Shown here: in pieces, positions 5,353-49,301 of the stretch
How the letters are laid out: the number at the start of each line of letters is the position of its first letter
How positions within the stretch are numbered: position 1 is the stretch's first letter
Origin: Kangiella sediminilitoris
GTDB taxonomy: Bacteria; Pseudomonadota; Gammaproteobacteria; Enterobacterales; Kangiellaceae
NCBI RefSeq assembly: GCF_001708405.1
Contig: NZ_CP012418.1
Coordinates: forward strand, 124,001 to 188,000
Reading direction: 5' to 3'
DNA: 64,000 nt
Notes under the pieces: generated by a model
What the model was told of the DNA's origin: nothing
Databases searched by the model: none
Seen by the model: only the letters and a program-made list of their open reading frames with translations
Position numbers and translations under genes: made by a program

Positions 5353-5970
5353 TTAGTCCTCTGGCTCGGTGCGTATCTCTGGGTTAGCGTACCATGCATC
5401 AAGTTTTGCGAAAAGCTGATCAAGGCCATGTTTTTTTGTGGCTGAAAATGCCTGGACGGTCGCCTCTGGGTGAATAGCATTAAGCTGCTTTTTGCATTGT
5501 AGCAATGCCTTTGATTTAGCTCCCTGCTTCAGCTTGTCAGATTTACTGAGAAGGCAATGAACTGGCAGGCCAACATCGTGCGCCCAGGCCAGGATCTGCT
5601 GATCAGTATCCTTGAGGAAATGTCGAATATCCATCAATAGAACAAGCCCGCGTAAACAGCGGCGTTCCTGGAGGTAACGAGAAAGCTCTTCCTGCCATAT
5701 TTTTTTAGTCGACTCCGAGACCTTGGCGTAACCATATCCTGGCAGATCAACAAGCCTGGCATCATCGGTCAGGGTAAAGACATTAATGAGCTGGGTGCGG
5801 CCAGGGGTTTTGCTGGTTCGAGCCAGACTTTTTTGTCGTGTGAGAGCATTCAGTGCACTCGATTTACCGGCATTAGAGCGCCCTGCGAACGCGACTTCGA
5901 TGCCTTCATCAGAGGGTAGCTGGTCGAGTTTGGCCGCTCCGAGCAGGTATTTGGCCTGTTGATAATGCAT
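5353..5970 (-). CDS. engB: Ribosome-biogenesis GTP-binding protein EngB/YihA
   Basis: A 205-residue TRAFAC-class GTPase needed for 50S subunit assembly and cell division in related bacteria. The nucleotide-binding motifs are visible in order: G1 GRSNAGKSS, G2 with the TPGRTQ segment, G3 DLPGYGYA, G4 SKSD (a variant of the usual TKxD) and G5 FSATKK. Length matches the family (E. coli 210). The C-terminus carries a short acidic tail. It is divergent from the cytochrome c4 gene and leads the minus-strand operon with the TPR protein. The neighbourhood polA / engB / cytochrome c4 / DsbA-like is familiar from Pseudomonas and other gammaproteobacteria, which supports vertical inheritance. Confidence 0.96.
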   Translation of the reverse strand: MHYQQAKYLLGAAKLDQLPSDEGIEVAFAGRSNAGKSSALNALTRQKSLARTSKTPGRTQLINVFTLTDDARLVDLPGYGYAKVSESTKKIWQEELSRYLQERRCLRGLVLLMDIRHFLKDTDQQILAWAHDVGLPVHCLLSKSDKLKQGAKSKALLQCKKQLNAIHPEATVQAFSATKKHGLDQLFAKLDAWYANPEIRTEPED

Positions 5971-5996
5971 AAATGTGGATTTTTTGCCTTAGGGTA

Positions 5997-6026
5997 TTGG
6001 CATTTTAACGGTTAGTTCCCTATAAT
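5997..6026 (+). promoter_or_regulatory. Sigma-70 promoter of cytochrome c4
   Basis: A TTGGCA -35 box (5997-6002) and a perfect TATAAT -10 box (6021-6026) are separated by 18 bases. They sit about 75 bases upstream of the cytochrome start, just outside the engB coding sequence. Confidence 0.7.
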
Positions 6027-6100
6027 TCACCGAGCTTTTCGATTTATTTTGTCAGCGGTTAAAAAATCGCGGCTATTTTATTATTTTAGTAGGTAACCGA

Positions 6101-6721
6101 ATGAGAAAGTTAGCTATTTTTGCTTTTGTTTTTGTAGCGTGGAGTGCTCCTGGTATTGCTGGTGATGCAGCTAAGGGTGCTGAATTAGCAGCAACGTGTG
6201 CGGCTTGCCATGGTCAGGATGGTAATAGCAGCAACCCTATGTGGCCTAAGCTTGCGGGACAAAGCGAGAAATACCTAGAGAAACAGCTTCATGACTTCCA
6301 GGCTGGTATTAAAGATCAGTCACAAGGTCGTTATAACGCTTCTATGGCAACGCCGATGATTTCTGATTTGAGTGATGAAGATATTGCTGATTTAGCAGCA
6401 TATTTCTCAGAACAGGAAACTCAGATGGGCGCAGTGAAAAAAGAATTCTTGGACCTTGGCAAGAAGATTTACTTCCAGGGTGATGCTGAGCGTAAGGTTC
6501 CAGCATGTAGTGCATGTCACGGTGCAACAGGCCAAGGGCTGAACTTGGCTGGCTACCCTGGTTTGTCAGGACAGCACCCTGAATATACTATTAGTCAATT
6601 AAAAGCGTTCTCACATGGTGAGCGTAATAATGACGCGAATGGTGTAATGCGAGATATTGCGATTCGCATGTCGGATCAGCAAATTGAAGCTGTTGCTCAT
6701 TTTGTACTAGGCTTGCACTAA
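6101..6721 (+). CDS. Cytochrome c4, diheme periplasmic electron carrier
   Basis: A 206-residue precursor with a signal peptide (residues 1-20, ending GIAG) and two class I cytochrome c domains joined head to tail. Each has a CxxCH haem site: CAACH at 33-37 and CSACH at 136-140. Methionine-bearing segments after each (MATPM and IRMSDQQ) can supply the sixth haem ligand. Cytochrome c4 carries electrons in the periplasm from the bc1 complex toward terminal oxidases such as cbb3. A ribosome site AGTAGG sits upstream of the ATG. It has its own promoter and terminator. The DsbA-like gene that follows is plausibly linked, since haem attachment needs thiol redox chemistry. Confidence 0.93.
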   Translation: MRKLAIFAFVFVAWSAPGIAGDAAKGAELAATCAACHGQDGNSSNPMWPKLAGQSEKYLEKQLHDFQAGIKDQSQGRYNASMATPMISDLSDEDIADLAAYFSEQETQMGAVKKEFLDLGKKIYFQGDAERKVPACSACHGATGQGLNLAGYPGLSGQHPEYTISQLKAFSHGERNNDANGVMRDIAIRMSDQQIEAVAHFVLGLH

Positions 6722-6751
6722 TTGACTTGCAATAAAAGCAGGGTTCAATGT

Positions 6752-6779
6752 AAAAAGGCGACGTAGAGTCGCCTTTTTT
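6752..6779 (+). terminator. Rho-independent terminator after cytochrome c4
   Basis: A long stem AAAAAGGCGAC with its complement closes a five-base loop, followed by T residues, about 30 bases after the stop codon. Confidence 0.85.
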
Positions 6780-6834
6780 GTGCCAGAATTCATTGGATAG
6801 GTAAAACAGATCATTAGGTTAGGAATACAAACAG

Positions 6835-7416
6835 ATGTATAAGTTCTTACTCATAGTTATATTAACCTGGGCTTCTTTGGGGAAATCAGCTGAATTCAAG
6901 TCCGGGGAGGATTATTGGCAGGTCAGAAGTGGTGATAGTGTGGCCGTAGCTGAGGGGGACAATTTATTTTTTACCTGGTGGGGTTGTGACTCATGTCGCC
7001 AGATTGAGGAAGAATTATCACAGCAGCTCGAAGGTTTTGAAGTGGTGCCTTTGATTGCTCGTCAGGAATGGCGGCCTGCGGCAAAAGCATTTTATGTGAT
7101 GAAGATGCTAGAAGGTAATCCAAATGCAGAAGATGTCATAAAGCAGCGTATAGAAGAAGGTACTTTGGACCCTAAAGATCAAAAAGCATTATTTGATGCA
7201 GTAATTGAGCTGGGCTATGACAAGGAGCAGGTGGCTGAGTTACTGGAGGATAGAGATCTATATGGTCGAATCGATCAAGCCGTTGCGCTGGCAGAAAATT
7301 ATAATATTCAATACGTACCGACAGTGGTGGTCAAAGGGCGTTTTGCTACCGATGCAAGACACACAATGACCGTCAAAAAGTTCGGTGAAGTGCTTGAGTA
7401 CCTTAAGACTCTGTAG
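6835..7416 (+). CDS. DsbA-like periplasmic thiol:disulfide oxidoreductase
   Basis: A 193-residue protein with a signal peptide (residues 1-18) and a DsbA-type thioredoxin fold. The active-site motif is C51-D-S-C54 inside the segment FFTWWGCDSC, followed by the helical insertion typical of DsbA and the cis-proline loop YVPTVV with P162. In the E. coli enzyme the motif is CPHC, so the dipeptide that tunes redox potential differs here. The neighbourhood (cytochrome c4, engB) is the one where dsbA sits in pseudomonads, which supports a role in introducing disulfides into exported proteins. The sequence is divergent, so I leave out the gene symbol. A DsbA paralogue with a narrower substrate range is possible. 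Confidence 0.8.
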   Translation: MYKFLLIVILTWASLGKSAEFKSGEDYWQVRSGDSVAVAEGDNLFFTWWGCDSCRQIEEELSQQLEGFEVVPLIARQEWRPAAKAFYVMKMLEGNPNAEDVIKQRIEEGTLDPKDQKALFDAVIELGYDKEQVAELLEDRDLYGRIDQAVALAENYNIQYVPTVVVKGRFATDARHTMTVKKFGEVLEYLKTL

Positions 7417-40336: not shown

Positions 40337-43201
40337 ATGACTGAAAAAACGAATTTGAAAGATTTACAACAGTCGGATGATTTTATCCGTCGTCACTTAG
40401 GTCCGCGCGAGAATGAAATTCAGGAAATGCTCGGTGAATTAGGCTTGACCTCATTGGATGATTTGGTGGAGAAAGCGGTTCCACACAAGATTCAGGTCAA
40501 AGAGCCCATCGCTATTGAAGCTTCGCGCTCGGAACAAGAGACACTTCGTTATCTACAGTCACTAGCCGACGAAAATATCGTAGCCAAGTCATATATAGGT
40601 ATGGGTTATTACGATACAGTTACGCCCAATGTGATTCTGCGTAATGTATTAGAAAACCCAGCATGGTATACCGCCTATACACCTTACCAGCCTGAAATTG
40701 CTCAGGGTCGTTTAGAAGCGATTTTGAACTTCCAGCAAATGACCATGGATTTGACTGGAATGGAGCTGGGAAGCGCATCTTTGTTAGATGAGGCAACTGC
40801 AGCAGCTGAAGCCATGGCTTTAGCCAAGCGTTCTTCGAAAAACAAAAAATGTAATAGCTTCTTTGTTGACGAGAAAACTTTCCCGCAAACTATCGATGTG
40901 ATTAAAACTCGCGCTGACCATTATGGCTGGGACTTAATTATTGGTCCTGTAGAAGAAGCGGTTGAGCATGATGTATTTGGTGCCTTGTTGTCTTATACCA
41001 ACATGCATGGTGACATCGTTGATATTGAGCCTATTATCGAAAAGCTTCACGAGAAAAAGGCTATTGCCTGTGTAGCGTCGGATATTATGAGTCTGGTGCT
41101 ACTGAAGTCACCAGGCGAGATGGGTGCTGATGTGGTGTTTGGCTCGGCACAGCGTTTTGGTGTTCCAATGGGCTTTGGTGGTCCTCATGCAGCGTTTTTT
41201 GGTACGCGTGAATCCTATAAACGTTCTTTACCGGGCCGTATTATCGGTGTATCCAAAGATACTCGGGGTAATAACGCACTGCGTATGGCGATGCAGACTC
41301 GTGAGCAGCACATTCGCCGAGAGAAAGCGACTTCTAACATTTGTACCGCGCAGGTGTTACTGGCCAATATCGCAAGTTTCTATGCCGTGTATCATGGTAA
41401 GAAGGGTTTAACAGCGATTGCTCAGCGGATTAATCGCTATGCATCAATTGTTGCTTCGGCGGTGGTGAATGCCGGCCTGGAAGTGGTTAATGACCATTGG
41501 TTTGATACAGTGACTTTCCGTGCATCAGACGTTGATTCCATTCGGGACCGTGCTAAAGAAGCTTTGGTCAACCTTCGCTACGATGGTGAACTTGTTAGCT
41601 TCTCGATCGATGAAGCTAAAAACCAGGATGATATAGAACAGCTCATTGAAGTCATCACCGGAACGGAAGCGGATATATTTGCTCTAGATAATGAAGCAGA
41701 AGATTCGATCCCTGCTAGCCTAGTTCGTCAGTCAGACTTCCTGACCCATCCTACATTCAAAGATTACTATTCTGAGACGGATATGCTGCGTTATATCAAA
41801 CGCTTGGAAAGCAAGGATTTTTCATTGGTTCACGGTATGATTCCTCTGGGTTCGTGCACCATGAAATTGAACGCAACCAGTGAAATGCTGCCAGTTACCT
41901 GGCCGAAGTTTGCGACTATACACCCGTTTGCGCCAGAAGATCAGACTTATGGTTACATGAAAATGATCAAAGAGCTGGAAGCTGATTTGGTGGAAATTAC
42001 CGGTTATGACTTTGTCTCTATGCAGCCTAACTCTGGTGCACAGGGTGAATATGCAGGCCTGATTGCGATTAAGAAATACCATGAGAGCAATAACGACGGT
42101 CACCGTAACATTTGCTTGATCCCAAGTTCCGCGCACGGCACTAATCCTGCATCAGCCCAGATGGCTGGAATGAAAGTGGTTATTGTTAAGTGTGATGACA
42201 AAGGTAACGTTGATGTAGCCGACCTAGAAGCAAAAGCTGTCGAAATGAAAGATAACCTGGCAGCATTAATGGTGACATACCCGTCCACACATGGGGTTTA
42301 CGAAGAAGAAATTAAACATATTTGCGATATTATCCACGACAACGGCGGTCAGGTTTACATGGATGGCGCAAACATGAACGCGCAGGTCGGAATCTCCCGT
42401 CCAGGTGACATCGGATCCGATGTATCACATCTGAATCTACATAAGACGTTCGCAATTCCACATGGTGGTGGCGGTCCCGGCATGGGCCCAATCGGAGTGA
42501 AATCTCACTTGGCACCATTTGTCTCTGGCCACTCAGTACGTAAGGTACACAGTGTGGAAGCTCGAGATAATGCGGTTTCGGCAGCTCCTTACGGTAGTGG
42601 AATGATTCTGCCGATTTCCTGGGCATACATCAAAATGCTTGGGCAGGTGGGACTACGAAGATCCACGGAAGTGGCTTTGTTAAATGCCAACTACCTGAAA
42701 AATAAGCTGTCTGAGCATTACCCTGTTTTGTATACCGGTCGTAACGACAAAGTGGCTCACGAATGCATAATTGACTTGCGTCAAATTAAGGCAGACACCG
42801 ATATCAGCGAGGTTGATCTGGCTAAAAGACTGATGGATTACGGATTCCATGCGCCAACAATGAGTTTCCCTGTGGCAGGTACTTTCATGATCGAGCCTAC
42901 GGAAAGTGAGTCTAAGTATGAGCTGGATCGTTTTATTGATGCGATGATTCGAATCAAAAAAGAGATTGAGAAGGTAGCAAGTGGCGAATGGGAAAAAGAC
43001 AATAATCCTCTAACCAACGCACCGCATACTCAGGCGGATCTGCGTGATTGGGATAAACCTTACTCTATTGCGGAAGCTATTTATCCTTCTGAAGCAACTA
43101 TTTTAAGCAAGTTTTGGCCAACGACTAATCGTATTGATGATGTTTTTGGTGATCGTAATCTAATGTGTAGCTGTCCCCCCACGGAAAGTTATTCAGAATA
43201 G
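40337..43201 (+). CDS. gcvP: Glycine dehydrogenase (decarboxylating), P protein
   Basis: A 954-residue single-chain P protein (E. coli 957) that decarboxylates glycine using pyridoxal phosphate. The PLP lysine is K703 in [20 protein letters not shown]. The N-terminal half repeats the fold, with [22 protein letters not shown] and a conserved [19 protein letters not shown] block; the C-terminus has GDRNLMCSC. The ATG at 40337 gives the best family alignment. A GTG three codons upstream (40328) is an alternative with equally poor ribosome site. The second terminator (43230-43255) ends the gene. Confidence 0.97.
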
Positions 43202-43229
43202 CTTATTTTGAGAACTTGATACTTGACTT

Positions 43230-43255
43230 AAAAAGCCGGCCTATGCTGGCTTTTT
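43230..43255 (+). terminator. Terminator after gcvP
   Basis: An 11-bp stem AAAAAGCCGGC with GCTGGCTTTTT (one G-T pair) and a four-base loop, ending in T. It isolates gcvP from the borosin locus. Confidence 0.85.
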
Positions 43256-43329
43256 AAGTATTTGTAATGTATAAATAAAGCGTTTTTGACTTATATTTTA
43301 TTGTATTTGGGGAAAGTTAAGGAACTACT

Positions 43330-43551
43330 ATGTCTAAGAAAAAATTTGAAGAGTTTGTCATTAAGCTATCTGAAGACTCACAATTAAATAAATCATATGT
43401 AGAAAACCCAGAGGCTGTGATGAAAGACTTTGGATTGGAAGATAATGAAATTAGGGCCGTGTTGAAAGGTGAGACAAAAGAAGTAGAAAAATTGATTGGA
43501 ACCAAAGCCGTCTGTATTCACATTGTCACACTAATGAAAGATGACAAATAA
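43330..43551 (+). CDS. Split-borosin precursor peptide (RiPP)
   Basis: A 73-residue peptide with an AAGGA ribosome site seven bases before its ATG. Residues 1-50 are helical and charged and contain N26-P-E-A-V-M31, then FGL at 34-36 and AVLKGE at 43-48. This matches the recognition region of split-borosin precursors such as SonA of Shewanella oneidensis, as I remember that sequence. The C-terminal core, about residues 60-69 (AVCIHIVTLM), is hydrophobic and beta-branched, as expected for backbone N-methylation, and is followed by KDDK. The core contains a cysteine and a histidine. It overlaps the methyltransferase start by 11 bases. Alternative readings as a Nif11 or nitrile-hydratase leader are less likely given the partner gene. 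Confidence 0.85.
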   Translation: MSKKKFEEFVIKLSEDSQLNKSYVENPEAVMKDFGLEDNEIRAVLKGETKEVEKLIGTKAVCIHIVTLMKDDK

Positions 43552-44356
43552 ACAGAACGGTTCTTATGTAGCTGTTAGTGCTGGCATGCTGTTGGCGGGG
43601 CATATCTCAGTTAGGGCGAAAAAAATAGTGGAAGAGGCAGATATTGTTTTGTCACTGATGCCTCATCCAATTGCGGAGAACTGGCTGGCGAGTATAAGTA
43701 ATAAGCATATTAGCCTGCAATCGTATTACGGGGAAGGGAAGCACAGAAAACAATCGTATGACGAAATGATTCAGCGTATTCTGGATGAAGTGAAGCAGGG
43801 AAAAAATGTATGTGGCGTATTTTATGGTCACGCGGGGGTATTTGCGTGGGTACCTCATGAGTCAGTTAGGCTGGCTAGGGGAGAAGGATATTCTGCTTAT
43901 ATGGAGCCGGGAATTTCAGCGGAGGCCTGCCTCTATTCTGACCTGGGAATCGATCCGGGTAGTTTTGGTATTCATAGTTATGAAGCGTCACAATTCTTAT
44001 TCTATGGCCACCAACCTAATGTCACCAGTTACCTTTTATTATGGCAAGTTGCTTTAGCTGGTGAGACTACAGCTAGAACGTTTAAGACAAGTAGAAGAAA
44101 TTTAGAAATTTTTGTTGAGTATTTGCTACAGTGGTACCCAAAAGAGCACAAAATCATTCTCTATGAAGCGGCTTTTTTACCACTAGACAAGGTCAGAAAG
44201 GATGAATTAAATCTGGAAGACCTGCCAATGGCTAAGCTTAATCTTCATACAACGATGGTTGTGCCGCCAGCTAAAAAAATGAGTATAAACAAGGAGTTGG
44301 TTGAAAAATTAGGTTTGGATGAACTCCTTATGAATGATAAGCAACAGCAAGTTTGA
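43541..44356 (+). CDS. Borosin peptide alpha-N-methyltransferase (split type)
   Basis: A 271-residue SAM-dependent enzyme with the tetrapyrrole-methylase fold. The N-terminal strand VAVSAGMLLAGH replaces the usual GxGxGD motif. SAM-binding motifs are VFYGHAGVF (93-101) and MEPGISAEACLYSDLGIDP (121-139). The catalytic stretch is Y62-Y63-G-E-G-K-H-R69-K-Q-S-Y73; the spacing Y63, R69 and Y73 equals that of Y66, R72 and Y76 in the fungal borosin OphMA. It should methylate backbone amides of the peptide encoded just upstream. Unlike OphMA it lacks a fused core, hence 'split'. Translation is coupled to the precursor by overlap. The C-terminus (MSINKELVEKLGLDELLM) resembles a short remnant of a leader-binding region. 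Confidence 0.88.
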   Translation: MTNKQNGSYVAVSAGMLLAGHISVRAKKIVEEADIVLSLMPHPIAENWLASISNKHISLQSYYGEGKHRKQSYDEMIQRILDEVKQGKNVCGVFYGHAGVFAWVPHESVRLARGEGYSAYMEPGISAEACLYSDLGIDPGSFGIHSYEASQFLFYGHQPNVTSYLLLWQVALAGETTARTFKTSRRNLEIFVEYLLQWYPKEHKIILYEAAFLPLDKVRKDELNLEDLPMAKLNLHTTMVVPPAKKMSINKELVEKLGLDELLMNDKQQQV

Positions 44357-44387
44357 AAAAAAAGAGTTTTAAAAGGATAATTAAATA

Positions 44388-45473
44388 ATGTCACAGCACA
44401 AGGGATTATTGATGTTTAAATTAATAATAATGCTCGTTGCATGGGTGTATTTAAATACGGTGCAGGCAGTGGACAATAAAAATTATTCTGAGGAACTGAA
44501 AGAAATAGAAGCGGAACTTTTAGTAGATCTGCCTACTTCCCTTGCACGATTAGAAGCTATCGGGAATGAACGAGAAAAATTATCAAATAAAGAAAAGGAA
44601 CATCATAAACTACTCAAAGCGCATGTACTTTACATGACGAATAATATTGCTAAAGCAAAAGCTGATTTAGAAGAATTAGAAAGTAGTCAGTTGGATCCAG
44701 AGCAAGAAGCAAAACGACTTATAGTATTATCGTCTATCTACCACCATAAAGGTGAAAGTGTTGATGCATTTATAACATTAGATAAGTCCCTAAAACTAAT
44801 AGATTCCTTAAGCGATGCCAGCTCTGAGGCGAAAATATTAATAAATGCAGTAGGTATGTATAAAGATGCAGATCTTTTAGAGTTTGCATTGGAGTACGGC
44901 CGGAGAGCAATAAGAGTTGCTAATAAAATTAAAGATTCACGAGCAATGTGCCGAGCAACTTATGAGTTGGGAGCAATTGAGCTCTTAACGCAAAACTTTA
45001 AAATGGCAGAAAACCGTCTGTTGATGGCCAAATCATATTGTGAAAAAAGTAATAACTTAATAGTTTCTTATGCTGTTAACTATGGTCTGATGGAGTTAAA
45101 CCTAGAAACTTCAAATTTAAAAAAAGCTGAGGAAATCGCTAAAGACCTATATCCTAAGGTAGAAGAGTACGGATGGGATGTATTGAGGTCAGCCACAAAT
45201 ACGTTATATGGGAAACTCCATCTTGAAAAGAATAAGTTAAATTTGGCAGAAAAGCATGGACTGAAAGCGTATGAACTAGCTAAAAAAATAGGCGATAAGA
45301 AAAGAACTGAAGCGGCATCAGCCCTATTAGCGCAAGTCTACTCCGAATTAGATAATGATAAAGAGGCAATAAAGTTTTATAAGGAGTATATGGAATTAAA
45401 TGTCGAAAACAAAACAAGGGTTAGGCAAAGGAAATTAGCGTTTGATATTGCAAGACGAGGCAACCTGAATTGA
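44388..45473 (+). CDS. Secreted TPR protein 1 of the borosin locus
   Basis: A 361-residue protein with a signal peptide (about residues 9-27, ending VQA) and otherwise only helical hairpins of the TPR type. The start at 44388 has an AAAAGGA site about ten bases upstream; an internal Met at codon 9 is possible. Cysteines C188 and C218 stand exactly 30 residues apart. The C-terminus has VRQRKLAFDIARR. It begins 31 bases after the methyltransferase and is followed by two paralogues, so a shared role with the peptide is plausible. The architecture looks like the periplasmic sensory part of TPR-GGDEF proteins without any output domain. No enzymatic motif was seen. Confidence 0.8.
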   Translation: MSQHKGLLMFKLIIMLVAWVYLNTVQAVDNKNYSEELKEIEAELLVDLPTSLARLEAIGNEREKLSNKEKEHHKLLKAHVLYMTNNIAKAKADLEELESSQLDPEQEAKRLIVLSSIYHHKGESVDAFITLDKSLKLIDSLSDASSEAKILINAVGMYKDADLLEFALEYGRRAIRVANKIKDSRAMCRATYELGAIELLTQNFKMAENRLLMAKSYCEKSNNLIVSYAVNYGLMELNLETSNLKKAEEIAKDLYPKVEEYGWDVLRSATNTLYGKLHLEKNKLNLAEKHGLKAYELAKKIGDKKRTEAASALLAQVYSELDNDKEAIKFYKEYMELNVENKTRVRQRKLAFDIARRGNLN

Positions 45474-45489
45474 TAGACAGGGTGTTGAA

Positions 45490-46587
45490 TTGAAAGTCTA
45501 TGTAAGGAACCTTTCGTGTGTGGTTCTTATTCCATTCCTACTTACAGCTTGGTTAGTCAAAGCTGATTATTACCAGCAATTAAAAGATATAGAGGAACAA
45601 AGACTAGCTGACCTGACTTTAACTAAGCTAAAGCTCGATAGCATATCGAAGGAACAGCATAAGTTTAGAGAAGAAGAAAAAAATTTATACCTCCTAATAA
45701 GAGCCCACTCCCAGGCAATGCATAGTGATTTTATTAGCGCGGAAAAGACGTTACTGAAAATAATAAATAGCAATGCAAGCCCAGATTATAAGGGAAGGGC
45801 CTATTCAATTTTAGCCTCGGTCCAGCAACTTCAGGCAGATTACATCAACTCCTTTTACAATATGGATAAGTCTTTGAGTTACTTGTCAAAGATGCATAAT
45901 AATAAGTACAAAACAAATATTCTGCAAAATGCCGTCAGCTTCTATAATGATTCCGATATGCTTAACTTTGCAATGGAGCATGCTCGCCGTCTACTCAGAC
46001 TTGGTGTCGAGGGTGGAAGCTTAGCCGATCAATGTCAGGCATATTATGAAATGGTAGTTATAGAACACTCGGCTAACAGAATAGAATTAGCAGAAAGTAG
46101 AATAGGTAAAACGCAGGACATTTGTAGTAAGGCAAAAGAAGTAATAATTTTACTTCACCTGACAAACATGCAGGCACAAATAGCCATGAATAAAGGAAAT
46201 ATTCAAAGGGCAGAAAAACTATTAGAAACTAATTACCAGAAAGTAAAGAATTATGGCTGGAAAATATTAACAGTTAGTACAGAGAATACGATAGCCGAGC
46301 TTCATTTTCTGAAGCAAGAATATAAAAATGCAGAGGAAATAGCGCTTAAAGCACTTAAATCAGCTGAAGAAATTAGCGATATAAAACGTACAAAAGATGC
46401 CACCAAGGTTTTAGCAAAAATATACTCTAATTTAGATCAGAAAGAAGAAGCACTGAAGTTCTATCAGAAATTTATGCAACTGGAGCAAAAGCTCAGTTCA
46501 TCGAATCGTCAACGAAAATTAGCTTTCGATAAAGCAAGACAACGTTTGAGAGCAGACCGAGTTGCCAAGTTCGAGGAAGCTAATTGA
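45490..46587 (+). CDS. Secreted TPR protein 2 of the borosin locus
   Basis: A 365-residue paralogue of the preceding gene, 16 bases after its stop. The start is a TTG at 45490, needed to include the signal peptide (residues 7-24, ending VKA). Conserved with its neighbours are the ARRLLRLG block, cysteines C182 and C212 exactly 30 apart (the second in QDIC), the NYGWKIL block, the DIKRTKDATKVLAKIYSNL hairpin and the terminal NRQRKLAFDKAR motif. The end of the chain is longer and basic. Base composition is A/T-rich like the other two. It is presumably periplasmic. Function is unknown. Confidence 0.8.
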   Translation: MKVYVRNLSCVVLIPFLLTAWLVKADYYQQLKDIEEQRLADLTLTKLKLDSISKEQHKFREEEKNLYLLIRAHSQAMHSDFISAEKTLLKIINSNASPDYKGRAYSILASVQQLQADYINSFYNMDKSLSYLSKMHNNKYKTNILQNAVSFYNDSDMLNFAMEHARRLLRLGVEGGSLADQCQAYYEMVVIEHSANRIELAESRIGKTQDICSKAKEVIILLHLTNMQAQIAMNKGNIQRAEKLLETNYQKVKNYGWKILTVSTENTIAELHFLKQEYKNAEEIALKALKSAEEISDIKRTKDATKVLAKIYSNLDQKEEALKFYQKFMQLEQKLSSSNRQRKLAFDKARQRLRADRVAKFEEAN

Positions 46588-46770
46588 TTTGAGTCACGAG
46601 CGAATAAGGCTGCCACCGAGTTATACTAGTCTAACAAAAATATTACACGGTCTGTGTCAGACTATCAGGTGTTGGTTAAAATAGAGGTTAAAGTTAGGAA
46701 TTGAAGATCATTTTTTCATCAAATGATATTGCAAGAAATACATGGAGGTAGATAGAGAAGGCGATGTGAG

Positions 46771-46821
46771 ATGGCCCTTGAGATAGCAGAAGAGCGTGTG
46801 AAAGAGCTTATTATAAAATGA
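46771..46821 (+). CDS. Short leader ORF coupled to TPR protein 3
   Basis: A 16-codon ORF (MALEIAEERVKELIIK) whose TGA stop overlaps the ATG of TPR gene 3 as ATGA. An AAGG sequence lies about ten bases before its ATG. The peptide would form a short amphipathic helix. It may be a leader peptide that controls translation of the TPR gene, or a chance open frame. It also resembles a fragment of a TPR helix, so it could be a remnant of a lost fourth paralogue. Confidence 0.4.
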   Translation: MALEIAEERVKELIIK

Positions 46822-47909
46822 ATGTTTTGGTAATAGTTATAAAAGTTATTTTATGTATATTGGTTTTTATACCGCCTATATTAAGAGCAGACTTTATTGA
46901 TGAATTAGAAAGGCTAGAAGCTAGTATCCCTAACGACATAGCTCTCGCTACAAAAGAAATCCAAAAGTATGAAAGTAGAGAGCCAGACTTTACGAATGAA
47001 GAAAAAAGCCTTTATCAAGTAACAAGAGCCCATATCGAATTATTGAATAGTAACTTTAAACAAGCAGAGTTGCTATTGGAGGATCTCCTAAATAGCAAAG
47101 CGGGAGCGAATTATAAAGCTCGTGCGCACTCTCTAATGGCATCGATATATAGTGCTACCGGTGAGTATGATGAAACATACTACCACTTAGATTGGTCGAT
47201 TAGATTGTTAGACCAAGTGGATAAAGAACGCTACAAAGTAACCATCTTATCGAATGCATTGAATAGTTATAATGATCTCGAAATGACAAGTTATTCAATG
47301 GACTACGCTGTTAGATTATTAAGATTTGGGGAAAAAACTGATAATAAATTTGCAGTATGTCTAGCTAAGGTAGAGTTAACTTTAATAGAGATCCAATTGA
47401 ATGATATTGCCATAGCTAGAGAGAGGCTTGAGGAAACTAAGGATATTTGTAGTGAAGGAACTACCAATTTAATACAATTAACTATTCAAATTATAGAGGC
47501 TAGAATAGCGTTATTAAGCGATGAAAGAGACAAGGCCAAAAGATTATTAGAAAAATATTATCCAATTACTGAGAAATTTGGTTGGGGCATTTTTACTTGC
47601 ATAGTAGAGGTATCTCTAGCAGAAACATATTACCAATTAGAGCAATATCAGAAGGCAAGAATCATGGCAATGCGTGGGTTTGAAAGAGCGGACCAGGTCA
47701 ATGATTTAAAGCGAAAAAAACAAGCATCGAGAATTTTAGCAAATATCGAGACTGAGCTTGGCAATGAAGATGAAGCAATAAAGTATTATAAAAAATATAT
47801 TCAGTTAGAGCAGGAGTATAATACTTCTTTAAAACAACGAAAGCTTAGTTATTCAAGAGCTGCCGCAAAAGTTTTAAAAGAACAGGAAGCTGAATACGAA
47901 GGGCATTAA
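46818..47909 (+). CDS. Secreted TPR protein 3 of the borosin locus
   Basis: A 363-residue third paralogue, separated from the second by 230 bases that hold small ORFs and a hairpin (GTCTG/CAGAC at 46650-46662). A hydrophobic signal peptide (residues 2-22, with PPILRA before the mature ADFIDEL) is followed by TPR hairpins. The cysteine pair is C181 and C211, again 30 apart with the second in KDIC, and the C-terminal motif reads LKQRKLSYSRAA. The gene's last four bases overlap the convergent mutH stop. No independent terminator was found. The longer upstream gap suggests its own promoter or a processing site. Confidence 0.8.
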   Translation: MNVLVIVIKVILCILVFIPPILRADFIDELERLEASIPNDIALATKEIQKYESREPDFTNEEKSLYQVTRAHIELLNSNFKQAELLLEDLLNSKAGANYKARAHSLMASIYSATGEYDETYYHLDWSIRLLDQVDKERYKVTILSNALNSYNDLEMTSYSMDYAVRLLRFGEKTDNKFAVCLAKVELTLIEIQLNDIAIARERLEETKDICSEGTTNLIQLTIQIIEARIALLSDERDKAKRLLEKYYPITEKFGWGIFTCIVEVSLAETYYQLEQYQKARIMAMRGFERADQVNDLKRKKQASRILANIETELGNEDEAIKYYKKYIQLEQEYNTSLKQRKLSYSRAAAKVLKEQEAEYEGH

Positions 47910-48565
47910 TTAAACTGGCGCTTTAAACAGGATTTAGTGAACTGTGGGCGTAAGTAAAAACCTCTTGGTAGGGTACGGATGGTACTTCCTTCAGGGCCAA
48001 TGGCATCAGTTAGTGCCTTTGAGTTAGCGGCTTTAGGCCTAACTTGTAGTATATCGCCGTAGCGAGCATCAAGATTATCTATATTTCCCATTGAAACTTG
48101 ATCGAGCACATCTTCAAAGTCCTGTTTAAGAGTATTCGCTTCCTCCGCTGTAGGCTTCCATAGAAAAGGCATAGCGATTTGCCTATCTTCTACGGCCAGG
48201 TGCTTACTGGACACAATTGGAACCCATAGGACATGCATCAGCTTATGACGAACCACAGAGTTCTCCCAATAGAGCCCTTGTATGTTAATTAAAGGGACAA
48301 CGCTAACATAGGTCGACTCAAGAGGGTTTCCAAGCTCATCAATCGGCAATGTTTTAAGCTCGACCCCTAGTTCAGGAAAATCAGGCTGTGCCAATGAACC
48401 TGATTCCGCACCAAGGATGAGTTCAAGGAATTGTCCGATCCAGCCCTTTTTATGCAGTAATCGCTGCGGGATCTCTTCTTTATATCGTTCCGCCAATTCA
48501 CCAAGGGTGAAACCGGCAAAGCTTTGCGCGTGCTGTAAAAGGGCCTGTGGGCTGTCGTATTGCAT
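47906..48565 (-). CDS. mutH: DNA mismatch repair endonuclease MutH
   Basis: A 219-residue type II restriction-like nuclease (E. coli 229) that nicks the unmethylated strand at hemimethylated GATC sites after MutS and MutL recognise a mismatch. The catalytic triad D62, E69, K71 lies in PDFPELGVELKTL with the same spacing as D70, E77, K79 of the E. coli protein. The N-terminal GxTLGELAE-like block and the C-terminal FYLRPQFT block are also typical. Presence of MutH implies Dam methylation in this organism. The gene is divergent from rppH, as in E. coli, with 67 bases between. Confidence 0.94.
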   Translation of the reverse strand: MQYDSPQALLQHAQSFAGFTLGELAERYKEEIPQRLLHKKGWIGQFLELILGAESGSLAQPDFPELGVELKTLPIDELGNPLESTYVSVVPLINIQGLYWENSVVRHKLMHVLWVPIVSSKHLAVEDRQIAMPFLWKPTAEEANTLKQDFEDVLDQVSMGNIDNLDARYGDILQVRPKAANSKALTDAIGPEGSTIRTLPRGFYLRPQFTKSCLKRQFN

Positions 48566-48632
48566 AAATTATTATTGTCGAACGCAGTGGTATGTGGAAC
48601 AATGATACCAAAGTTATTATTTGGATGGATAG

Positions 48633-49301
48633 ATGATCGACGCAGAAGGCTTTAGAGCCAACGTCGGCATCATCATTTGTAACAACCAAGGCCAGTTACT
48701 CTGGACGCGCCGTTATGGACAAACATCATGGCAATTCCCTCAAGGCGGGGTACATCCCGGCGAAAGTCCCGAGCAAACCATGTACCGAGAACTATACGAA
48801 GAAGTCGGCCTGGAAAAAGATGATGTCCGTATTCTAGGGAGTACGCAGCACTGGTATAAATACCGGTTGCCACAACGGCTAATCCGCCAGAACTCCCAGC
48901 CACTGTGCGTTGGCCAGAAGCAGAAGTGGTTTTTGTTACAACTGGTTAGCGATGAGAGTAGGATAGATTTTGAAGCAACGAATCATCCTGAGTTTGATGG
49001 TTTTATCTGGGTTAACTATTGGTACCCTGTCAGGAATGTAGTGAACTTCAAACGAGATGTCTATCGAGCCGCTCTTTCTGAGCTGATGGGTTCTATGTTT
49101 CGTTTCCAAATGCATGGCAAATCAAGCCATAAGCCGGAAAAGAAACATAAAAAGAAAAATAATCACCGTCAGAATAAGGCTAAGCATACCGATAAGGGAG
49201 TGCAGACAAACGACGACAATCAGCCGCGGCAAAATAATAATGGTCGCAGGCGACGCCCACGGCATCCTTACCGCGCGCATAAAGAGTCAGAGAGCAGCTA
49301 A
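48633..49301 (+). CDS. rppH: RNA pyrophosphohydrolase RppH with long basic tail
   Basis: A 222-residue Nudix hydrolase that removes pyrophosphate from 5'-triphosphate mRNA and so starts decay by RNase E. The Nudix box is complete: [22 protein letters not shown]. The Nudix core (1-165) matches the family (E. coli 176). The last 60 residues form an extra disordered tail extremely rich in K, R, H, N and Q (for example KKHKKKNNH and [11 protein letters not shown]). This tail is likely to bind RNA or a degradosome partner. The gene sits next to mutH as in E. coli. Confidence 0.93.

Follow-up and report, generated by a model that had tools for sequence, protein, structure and literature searches.

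A predicted type IV split borosin pair and its neighboring output-less TPR proteins in Kangiella sediminilitoris

The borosin pair and its surroundings

The analyzed stretch of DNA, which comprises 64,000 nucleotides and is called "the window" throughout, stems from Kangiella sediminilitoris, the genome of which is a single contig of 2.50 Mb. On its forward strand it contains an open reading frame of 73 codons (43330..43551) for a borosin precursor, which is composed of a SonA-like leader, the borosin binding domain, and a C-terminal core. It is followed by an open reading frame of 271 codons (43541..44356) for a SonM-like alpha-N-methyltransferase. The original prediction had described a 73-residue peptide and a 271-residue methylase that overlap by 11 bases, and both reading frames were found as described. 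An AAGGA that resembles a ribosome-binding site (43319..43323, forward strand) is read directly from the sequence six bases upstream of the precursor ATG, and a terminator-like hairpin with a 15-pair stem (43226..43259, forward strand) separates the precursor gene from the upstream gene, which we take to be gcvP. In the underlying pattern scan, seven terminator-like hairpins were found in the region 43100-48700, compared to 4.0 (sd 1.8) in shuffled sequences.

Downstream of the pair, three tandem genes on the same strand encode TPR proteins. TPR1 (44388..45473) starts 31 bases after the end of the methyltransferase gene, and the paralogs TPR2 (45490..46587) and TPR3 (46818..47909) are 32% and 26% identical to it, respectively. 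For all three proteins the only Pfam families above the cut-off were TPR families, an output domain is absent, and hydropathy analysis revealed an N-terminal, export-type hydrophobic segment and no inner segment. The neighbors of the pair are these TPR genes and genes that are presumably gcv genes, in agreement with the earlier remark that neither a protease nor an exporter gene adjoins it.

Comparison of the methyltransferase with solved structures revealed SonM as the top match (E 8e-79), with the fused borosin enzymes of fungi next in rank (from 1.9e-41). The matches listed at E <=0.001 comprise 25 distinct sequences, all of them borosin methyltransferases, and RsmI, CobA and DPH5 are not among them; top matches to the latter three, with no borosin match, had been named in the original prediction as the outcome that would speak against it. 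The enzyme and SonM have 126 of 253 aligned residues in common (49.8%), and seven of the eight SonM active site positions that were checked are kept (Y58, R67, Y71, Y93, F99, E146, W166). The first three align with Y63, R69 and Y73, the residues originally proposed as the catalytic set, and the other four correspond to Y95, F101, E148 and W168 in the alignment. The eighth position, Q178 in SonM, is T180 in the window enzyme. In 146 aligned methyltransferases the seven kept positions are nearly invariant, while position 178 is variable. The motifs that had been pointed out before, YGHAGVF and EPGISAEACL in the enzyme and NPEAVM in the peptide, are all present.

The precursor had seven matches among the solved structures, all of which are SonA chains, the best one with E 6e-9 and without gaps over 58 residues at an offset of 2. 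Several of these chains carry the label LigA domain-containing protein; the Pfam LigA score of the precursor is 18.1 bits, under the cut-off of 25.3. The structural model (mean pLDDT 77) has five helices in the leader and one in the core. In the fold comparison, the first 29 ranks are occupied by chains of SonA length from SonM-SonA entries (TM 0.58-0.72 by query, best E 0.017, none reaching 0.001), followed by LigA and OphMA-type entries. Orthologous precursor/methyltransferase pairs are present at the same place beside the presumed gcvP in other Kangiella genomes, and purifying selection acts on the precursor: nine of 15 pairs allowed dS to be computed and gave an omega of 0.02-0.07 (in the other six dS was saturated, and the window takes part in four of these). 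Therefore, the pair is more than a chance arrangement. With SonM and SonA as the best solved relatives of enzyme and peptide, the split borosin identity that had been proposed is upheld, and this Kangiella pair is almost certainly, as judged by homology, a split borosin of type IV and a new member of an established group.

The offset of 2 in the SonA alignment places the predicted core at residues 60-69 (AVCIHIVTLM, 43507..43536, forward strand). SonA carries its methyl groups on L63 and I65 (PMC8429565), and by register I65 and T67 are probably the likeliest methylation sites of the window peptide, within residues 60-69. The window core, AVCIHIVTLMKDDK, lacks the acidic PAEDD-like motif of other borosins. 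The suggestion that its cysteine and histidine might bind metal has not fared as well as the borosin assignment: H64 is replaced by N in L042-L045, by F in L046, and by V in L048 and L054, and Cys62 is kept in L042-L046, L048, L054 and L051 but missing in L047, L049 and L052. The remark is weak because the histidine is variable and the cysteine is partly lost, and in view of these replacements in class A and A' relatives and the loss of Cys62, metal binding by the core was dismissed as a general role.

Split borosins and their TPR neighbors

All 20 Kangiella genomes searched contain at least one SonM-type methyltransferase (E <=1e-20), and the examined loci together with the window contain 42. 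By eye, the precursors were assigned to the classes A, A', B, C, D, E and F according to their cores. Class A is the window type, A' comprises two relatives, C is close to SonA, D is acidic, and E contains two blocks of LLLL. An output-less TPR neighbor accompanies 17 methyltransferases, which are distributed over 16 loci and group in a single clade with a support of 1.0. Fifteen of these 16 loci sit between gcvP and a gene that we take to be MutH-like, and the short contig of L047 reveals the gcvP side alone.

Several loci have features of their own. L047 contains two methyltransferase-precursor pairs side by side, and tandem precursor copies lie by one methyltransferase in L121 (6768-7283) and L143 (8319-9065). 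The class E precursors (L055 1135-1338, L056 8017-8280, L057 9534-9737, L058 8118-8321), with the blocks KLLLLEP...HKLLLLTP, each adjoin their own methyltransferase gene, and L056-L058 adjoin a class D locus. Genes for GNAT acetyltransferases (PF13302) adjoin many loci of classes D and E, e.g., L006, L056, L112 and L115; the acetyltransferase is a candidate second tailoring enzyme at these loci.

While the borosin identity was supported, the original prediction had overlooked the conserved TPR neighbors and hence the likely function. When a TPR protein of 250 aa or more was required on the strand of the methyltransferase gene, no more than three genes and 2.5 kb from it, 126 of 144 related loci had a partner, namely 84 TPR-GGDEF proteins, 20 TPR-histidine kinases, and 22 TPR proteins without output. 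The genes in these counts are length-chosen, uncurated open reading frames, and the TPR HMMs were built from Kangiella borosin neighbors and are thus tuned to them; with the identical HMMs, a control set of 430 more remote genes in these loci (250 aa or longer, at a distance of four positions or more) yielded only 4 TPR proteins. In Kangiella, 38 of 42 methyltransferases are paired (17 with output-less and 21 with TPR-GGDEF proteins), and the four unpaired ones all belong to class E, the sole Kangiella borosins without a TPR neighbor under this rule. Outside Kangiella the pairing holds for 88 of 102 methyltransferases (63 TPR-GGDEF, 20 TPR-kinase, 5 output-less), and 20 of 22 genera have at least one case; these 102 enzymes represent 100 loci, 34 of them are from the single genus g10, so related genomes are not independent, and the places in G289, G386 and G395 are outside the set. 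The 18 loci of the 144 without a partner include, in addition to class E, L158, where the TPR-GGDEF gene is on the opposite strand, and L161, L171 and L198, where a contig edge is near the pair. The Colwellia locus L006 is outside the counts. The TPR neighbors recur at differing chromosomal places. Beyond the order, one of seven loci has a TPR partner, and therefore the pairing claim is restricted to this order.

The neighbors share a common architecture. Among the 104 sensors with output, hydropathy analysis found one inner hydrophobic segment in 101, two overlapping segments in two, and none in one, and an N-terminal segment over the threshold in 69. Pfam identified GGDEF domains in two class C neighbors, one class D neighbor, and the Colwellia protein, in the last of which no TPR family passed 0.001. 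Of eight other neighbors, six have histidine-kinase domains, two of these together with receivers, and the remaining two have TPR families only. At L117 a TPR frame and a separate GGDEF frame (5848-7089 and an adjacent frame of 154 aa) occupy the usual TPR-GGDEF place, and the sensor is apparently split or broken. Two cysteines of TPR1, C188 and C218, are invariant in 34 aligned output-less TPRs and are kept in 84 of 84 borosin-linked GGDEF sensors (compared with 19 output-less rows, which represent 18 distinct proteins because TPR1 occurs twice), while this region is devoid of cysteine in 14 of 20 kinase sensors. The shared cysteine pair and the hydropathy indicate that the window TPRs match the GGDEF sensors in their input domain and stop short of the transmembrane helix.

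A profile of the window-type TPR was used to search 10 chosen genomes. Sixteen of 19 matches at E <=1e-12 lie within about 4 kb of a methyltransferase gene, compared to none of 22 weaker matches; the profile overlooked the linked sensor of G220. The three unlinked strong matches are a TPR-GGDEF gene of G061 and a pair of output-less TPR genes at the gcv place of G016 (L278), where a methyltransferase and a precursor were looked for and neither was found; the borosins of G016, of classes C and D, are located elsewhere. Output-less TPRs are present in 20 of 20 Kangiella genomes, and in four of these (G008, G013, G014, G016; G016 was the one looked at in detail) they occur away from any methyltransferase. 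In the genome of the window, no output-bearing sensor with the same cysteine pair was found elsewhere. Three candidates were rejected: cysteine is absent from the TPR part of the TPR-kinase L245 (a partial frame) and of the TPR-GGDEF protein L246, and L247 has several cysteines, none of which are 30 residues apart as in TPR1 (judged by unaligned positions).

The model of TPR1 has a mean pLDDT of 92. By E-value the TPR domains of the eukaryotic protein LGN were the best fold matches, while by query TM-score 4gyo_B, a Rap protein with its pheromone, was highest among the 50 matches listed (0.67, 15% identity). Other Rap proteins and NprR had TM-scores of 0.49-0.66, with 0.60 by query length for the NprR structure 5dbk_A. 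The modeled fold is thus close to the Rap/NprR pheromone receptors, which is weak evidence because the TPR solenoid is a common fold that is similar to many proteins. For the acidic class (22 loci), variation of the core follows that of the TPR part (partial r 0.353, p 0.0025, with GGDEF and methyltransferase controlled), but neither that of GGDEF (p 0.69) nor that of the methyltransferase (p 0.57); the leader-core boundary was placed at a weak column of this class (G in 18%), and the matrix tests retain shared ancestry. In 23 SonA-type loci the core-GGDEF correlation (r 0.343, p 0.001) is stronger than the core-TPR correlation (r 0.224, p 0.0145), and therefore this set gives no specific support for a matching of core and TPR.

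Maturation and possible function

Shewasin A, a pepsin homolog, reportedly cuts a borosin precursor. In Kangiella, a search with PF00026 detected a pepsin in 12 of 20 genomes, and these are exactly the genomes with class D precursors (12 of 12 versus 0 of 8 others), although the pepsin gene is distant from the class D genes (e.g., about 214 kb in G014). Outside Kangiella a pepsin is present in 26 of 78 genomes, in some of them beside the borosin genes (G239, G368, G257). It occurs in 22 of 28 genomes with class D versus 3 of 46 others (n=74, Fisher 1.7e-10, uncorrected for ancestry; class D was assigned by a motif rule, and G289, G378, G386 and G395 are outside the 74). In the three pepsin-bearing exceptions, G080, G259 and G145, the pepsin gene is about 1 kb from a methyltransferase gene, and therefore the rule may have overlooked class D precursors there. 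The pattern says that shewasin-type cleavage concerns class D and not the window-type core. PF00026 has no match in the window's genome, and as pepsin tracks the acidic class D, a maturation of the window borosin by pepsin was rejected. Shewasin D has been described as mainly cytoplasmic (PMC4814920).

Because TPR proteins that resemble peptide receptors adjoin most of the relatives examined, we suggest that the borosin peptides are signals. The SonM-like enzyme would dock the SonA-like leader and N-methylate the backbone of the core, with I65 and T67 as the probable sites, as strong homology implies. Some protease other than a shewasin-type pepsin would then free the core. General properties of N-methylated peptides suggest that the short product could be protease-resistant and membrane-crossing, which would make an exporter needless. 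In the periplasm, as the conserved neighbors and their topology imply, the peptide would bind in the groove of the neighboring TPR proteins. The homologous TPR domain of most examined relatives is linked via a transmembrane helix to an output domain, either diguanylate cyclase or histidine kinase, and binding would alter the c-di-GMP level or phosphotransfer. The window TPRs, without helix or output, may be periplasmic binding proteins, decoys, or presenters of the peptide to a separate sensor.

We give an even chance to the view that these borosins act as peptide signals and that periplasmic TPR proteins, which at the window have no output domain, are their receptors. Its arguments are the neighbor pairing, the interchangeable outputs (GGDEF, histidine kinase, receiver), the topology, the cysteine pair, the linkage of profile matches, the Rap/NprR-like fold, and the co-variation of core and TPR in the acidic class. 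Against it count the unlinked TPRs of G016 and three more Kangiella genomes, the co-variation in the SonA-type set, the 18 unpaired loci of 144, the single partner in seven loci beyond the order, LGN as best match by E-value, and, at the window, the missing output and the lack of a cysteine-pair sensor found in the genome. A more specific version is put forward tentatively: the split borosins of this order might be Gram-negative, N-methylated, exporter-free pheromones, each with a dedicated periplasmic TPR receptor that feeds into c-di-GMP or histidine-kinase signaling, and Kangiella might have derived an output-less array that binds, buffers, or hides the signal.

Other explanations of the locus have to be weighed against a signaling function. 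The same biosynthetic pair could produce a secreted bioactive peptide, e.g., antimicrobial or metal-binding, with the TPR proteins as accessories in chaperoning, export, or immunity. The output-less TPRs have no obvious signaling part and would suit a chaperone or an immunity protein equally well, and the cysteine is kept in class A cores. However, 104 of the 126 paired loci have the TPR part fused to a signaling output, an arrangement more in keeping with a sensor than with a chaperone, and the core histidine is variable, and thus we regard this explanation as rather unlikely. It is quite improbable that the two gene sets are mere neighbors, i.e., that a TPR array with its own periplasmic role resides at the gcv place and the borosin pair was gained or lost beside it. 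The ubiquity of output-less TPRs in Kangiella and their unlinked occurrence in four genomes, with G016 as the case studied in detail, would be expected in that case, but TPR neighbors are found at varied sites in the chromosome and, outside Kangiella, in 20 of 22 genera, 16 of 19 strong profile matches are at borosin loci, and a borosin is present in each of the 20 Kangiella genomes. That the enzyme is not a borosin methyltransferase, but another protein with the tetrapyrrole-methylase fold (RsmI, CobA, DPH5, YabN) beside an unrelated small protein, is hardly credible: Pfam assigns it to the general TP_methylase family and NCBIfam yields weak matches to YabN and cobalamin methylases, which are far under the cut-offs, whereas the solved-structure search listed borosin enzymes alone, the peptide matches SonA, and the active site is kept.

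To our knowledge, chemistry and structures of bacterial split borosins have been described, but no biological function. The near-constant TPR partner, mostly with a swappable output, offers a cheap and direct hypothesis, namely, that the peptide is the ligand of a sensor. If true, this would be a route of Gram-negative peptide signaling in which backbone methylation replaces a dedicated exporter. Output-less loci such as that of the window supply soluble, receptor-only proteins for binding assays. The literature search, which left most subscription journals outside, found no paper that joins borosin with tetratricopeptide, with Kangiella, or with shewasin, and none that combines RiPP, GGDEF, tetratricopeptide and precursor peptide. 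A borosin scheme in PMC11395268 includes a GGDEF domain, according to the legend of Figure 1, and therefore the link between GGDEF and borosins is at least partly in print and the TPR pairing may be partly known already.

Comparison with known systems

The closest characterized system is SonM/SonA of Shewanella oneidensis (type IV; PMC8429565), which, like the window, has a separate enzyme and precursor with homology over the full length. Common to both are the active site, the five-helix leader, and the register of the core. In contrast to SonM/SonA, the window enzyme, at 49.8% identity, has T instead of Q178, the core sequence differs, the precursor gene precedes and overlaps the enzyme gene, and the neighbors are output-less TPRs. 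Two loci with an enzyme that is 98% identical to SonM (L121, L124) have a TPR-GGDEF neighbor. The fused fungal borosins OphMA and dbOphMA share the catalytic fold and the tyrosine-arginine-tyrosine set with the window enzyme; however, they unite enzyme, leader, and core in one chain, whereas separate proteins are encoded here. The acidic borosins of class D resemble the window in their related methyltransferase and precursor and likewise have a TPR neighbor, there of the TPR-GGDEF type, but they differ in a PAEDD-like core, a GNAT neighbor at many loci, and a pepsin in the genome, all of which the window lacks. The RRNPP receptors Rap and NprR have the TPR solenoid in common with TPR1. They are cytoplasmic and function as phosphatases or in DNA binding, whereas the window TPRs have an export-type segment and no output. 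The array of output-less putative receptors is what varies from the established kind of split borosin.
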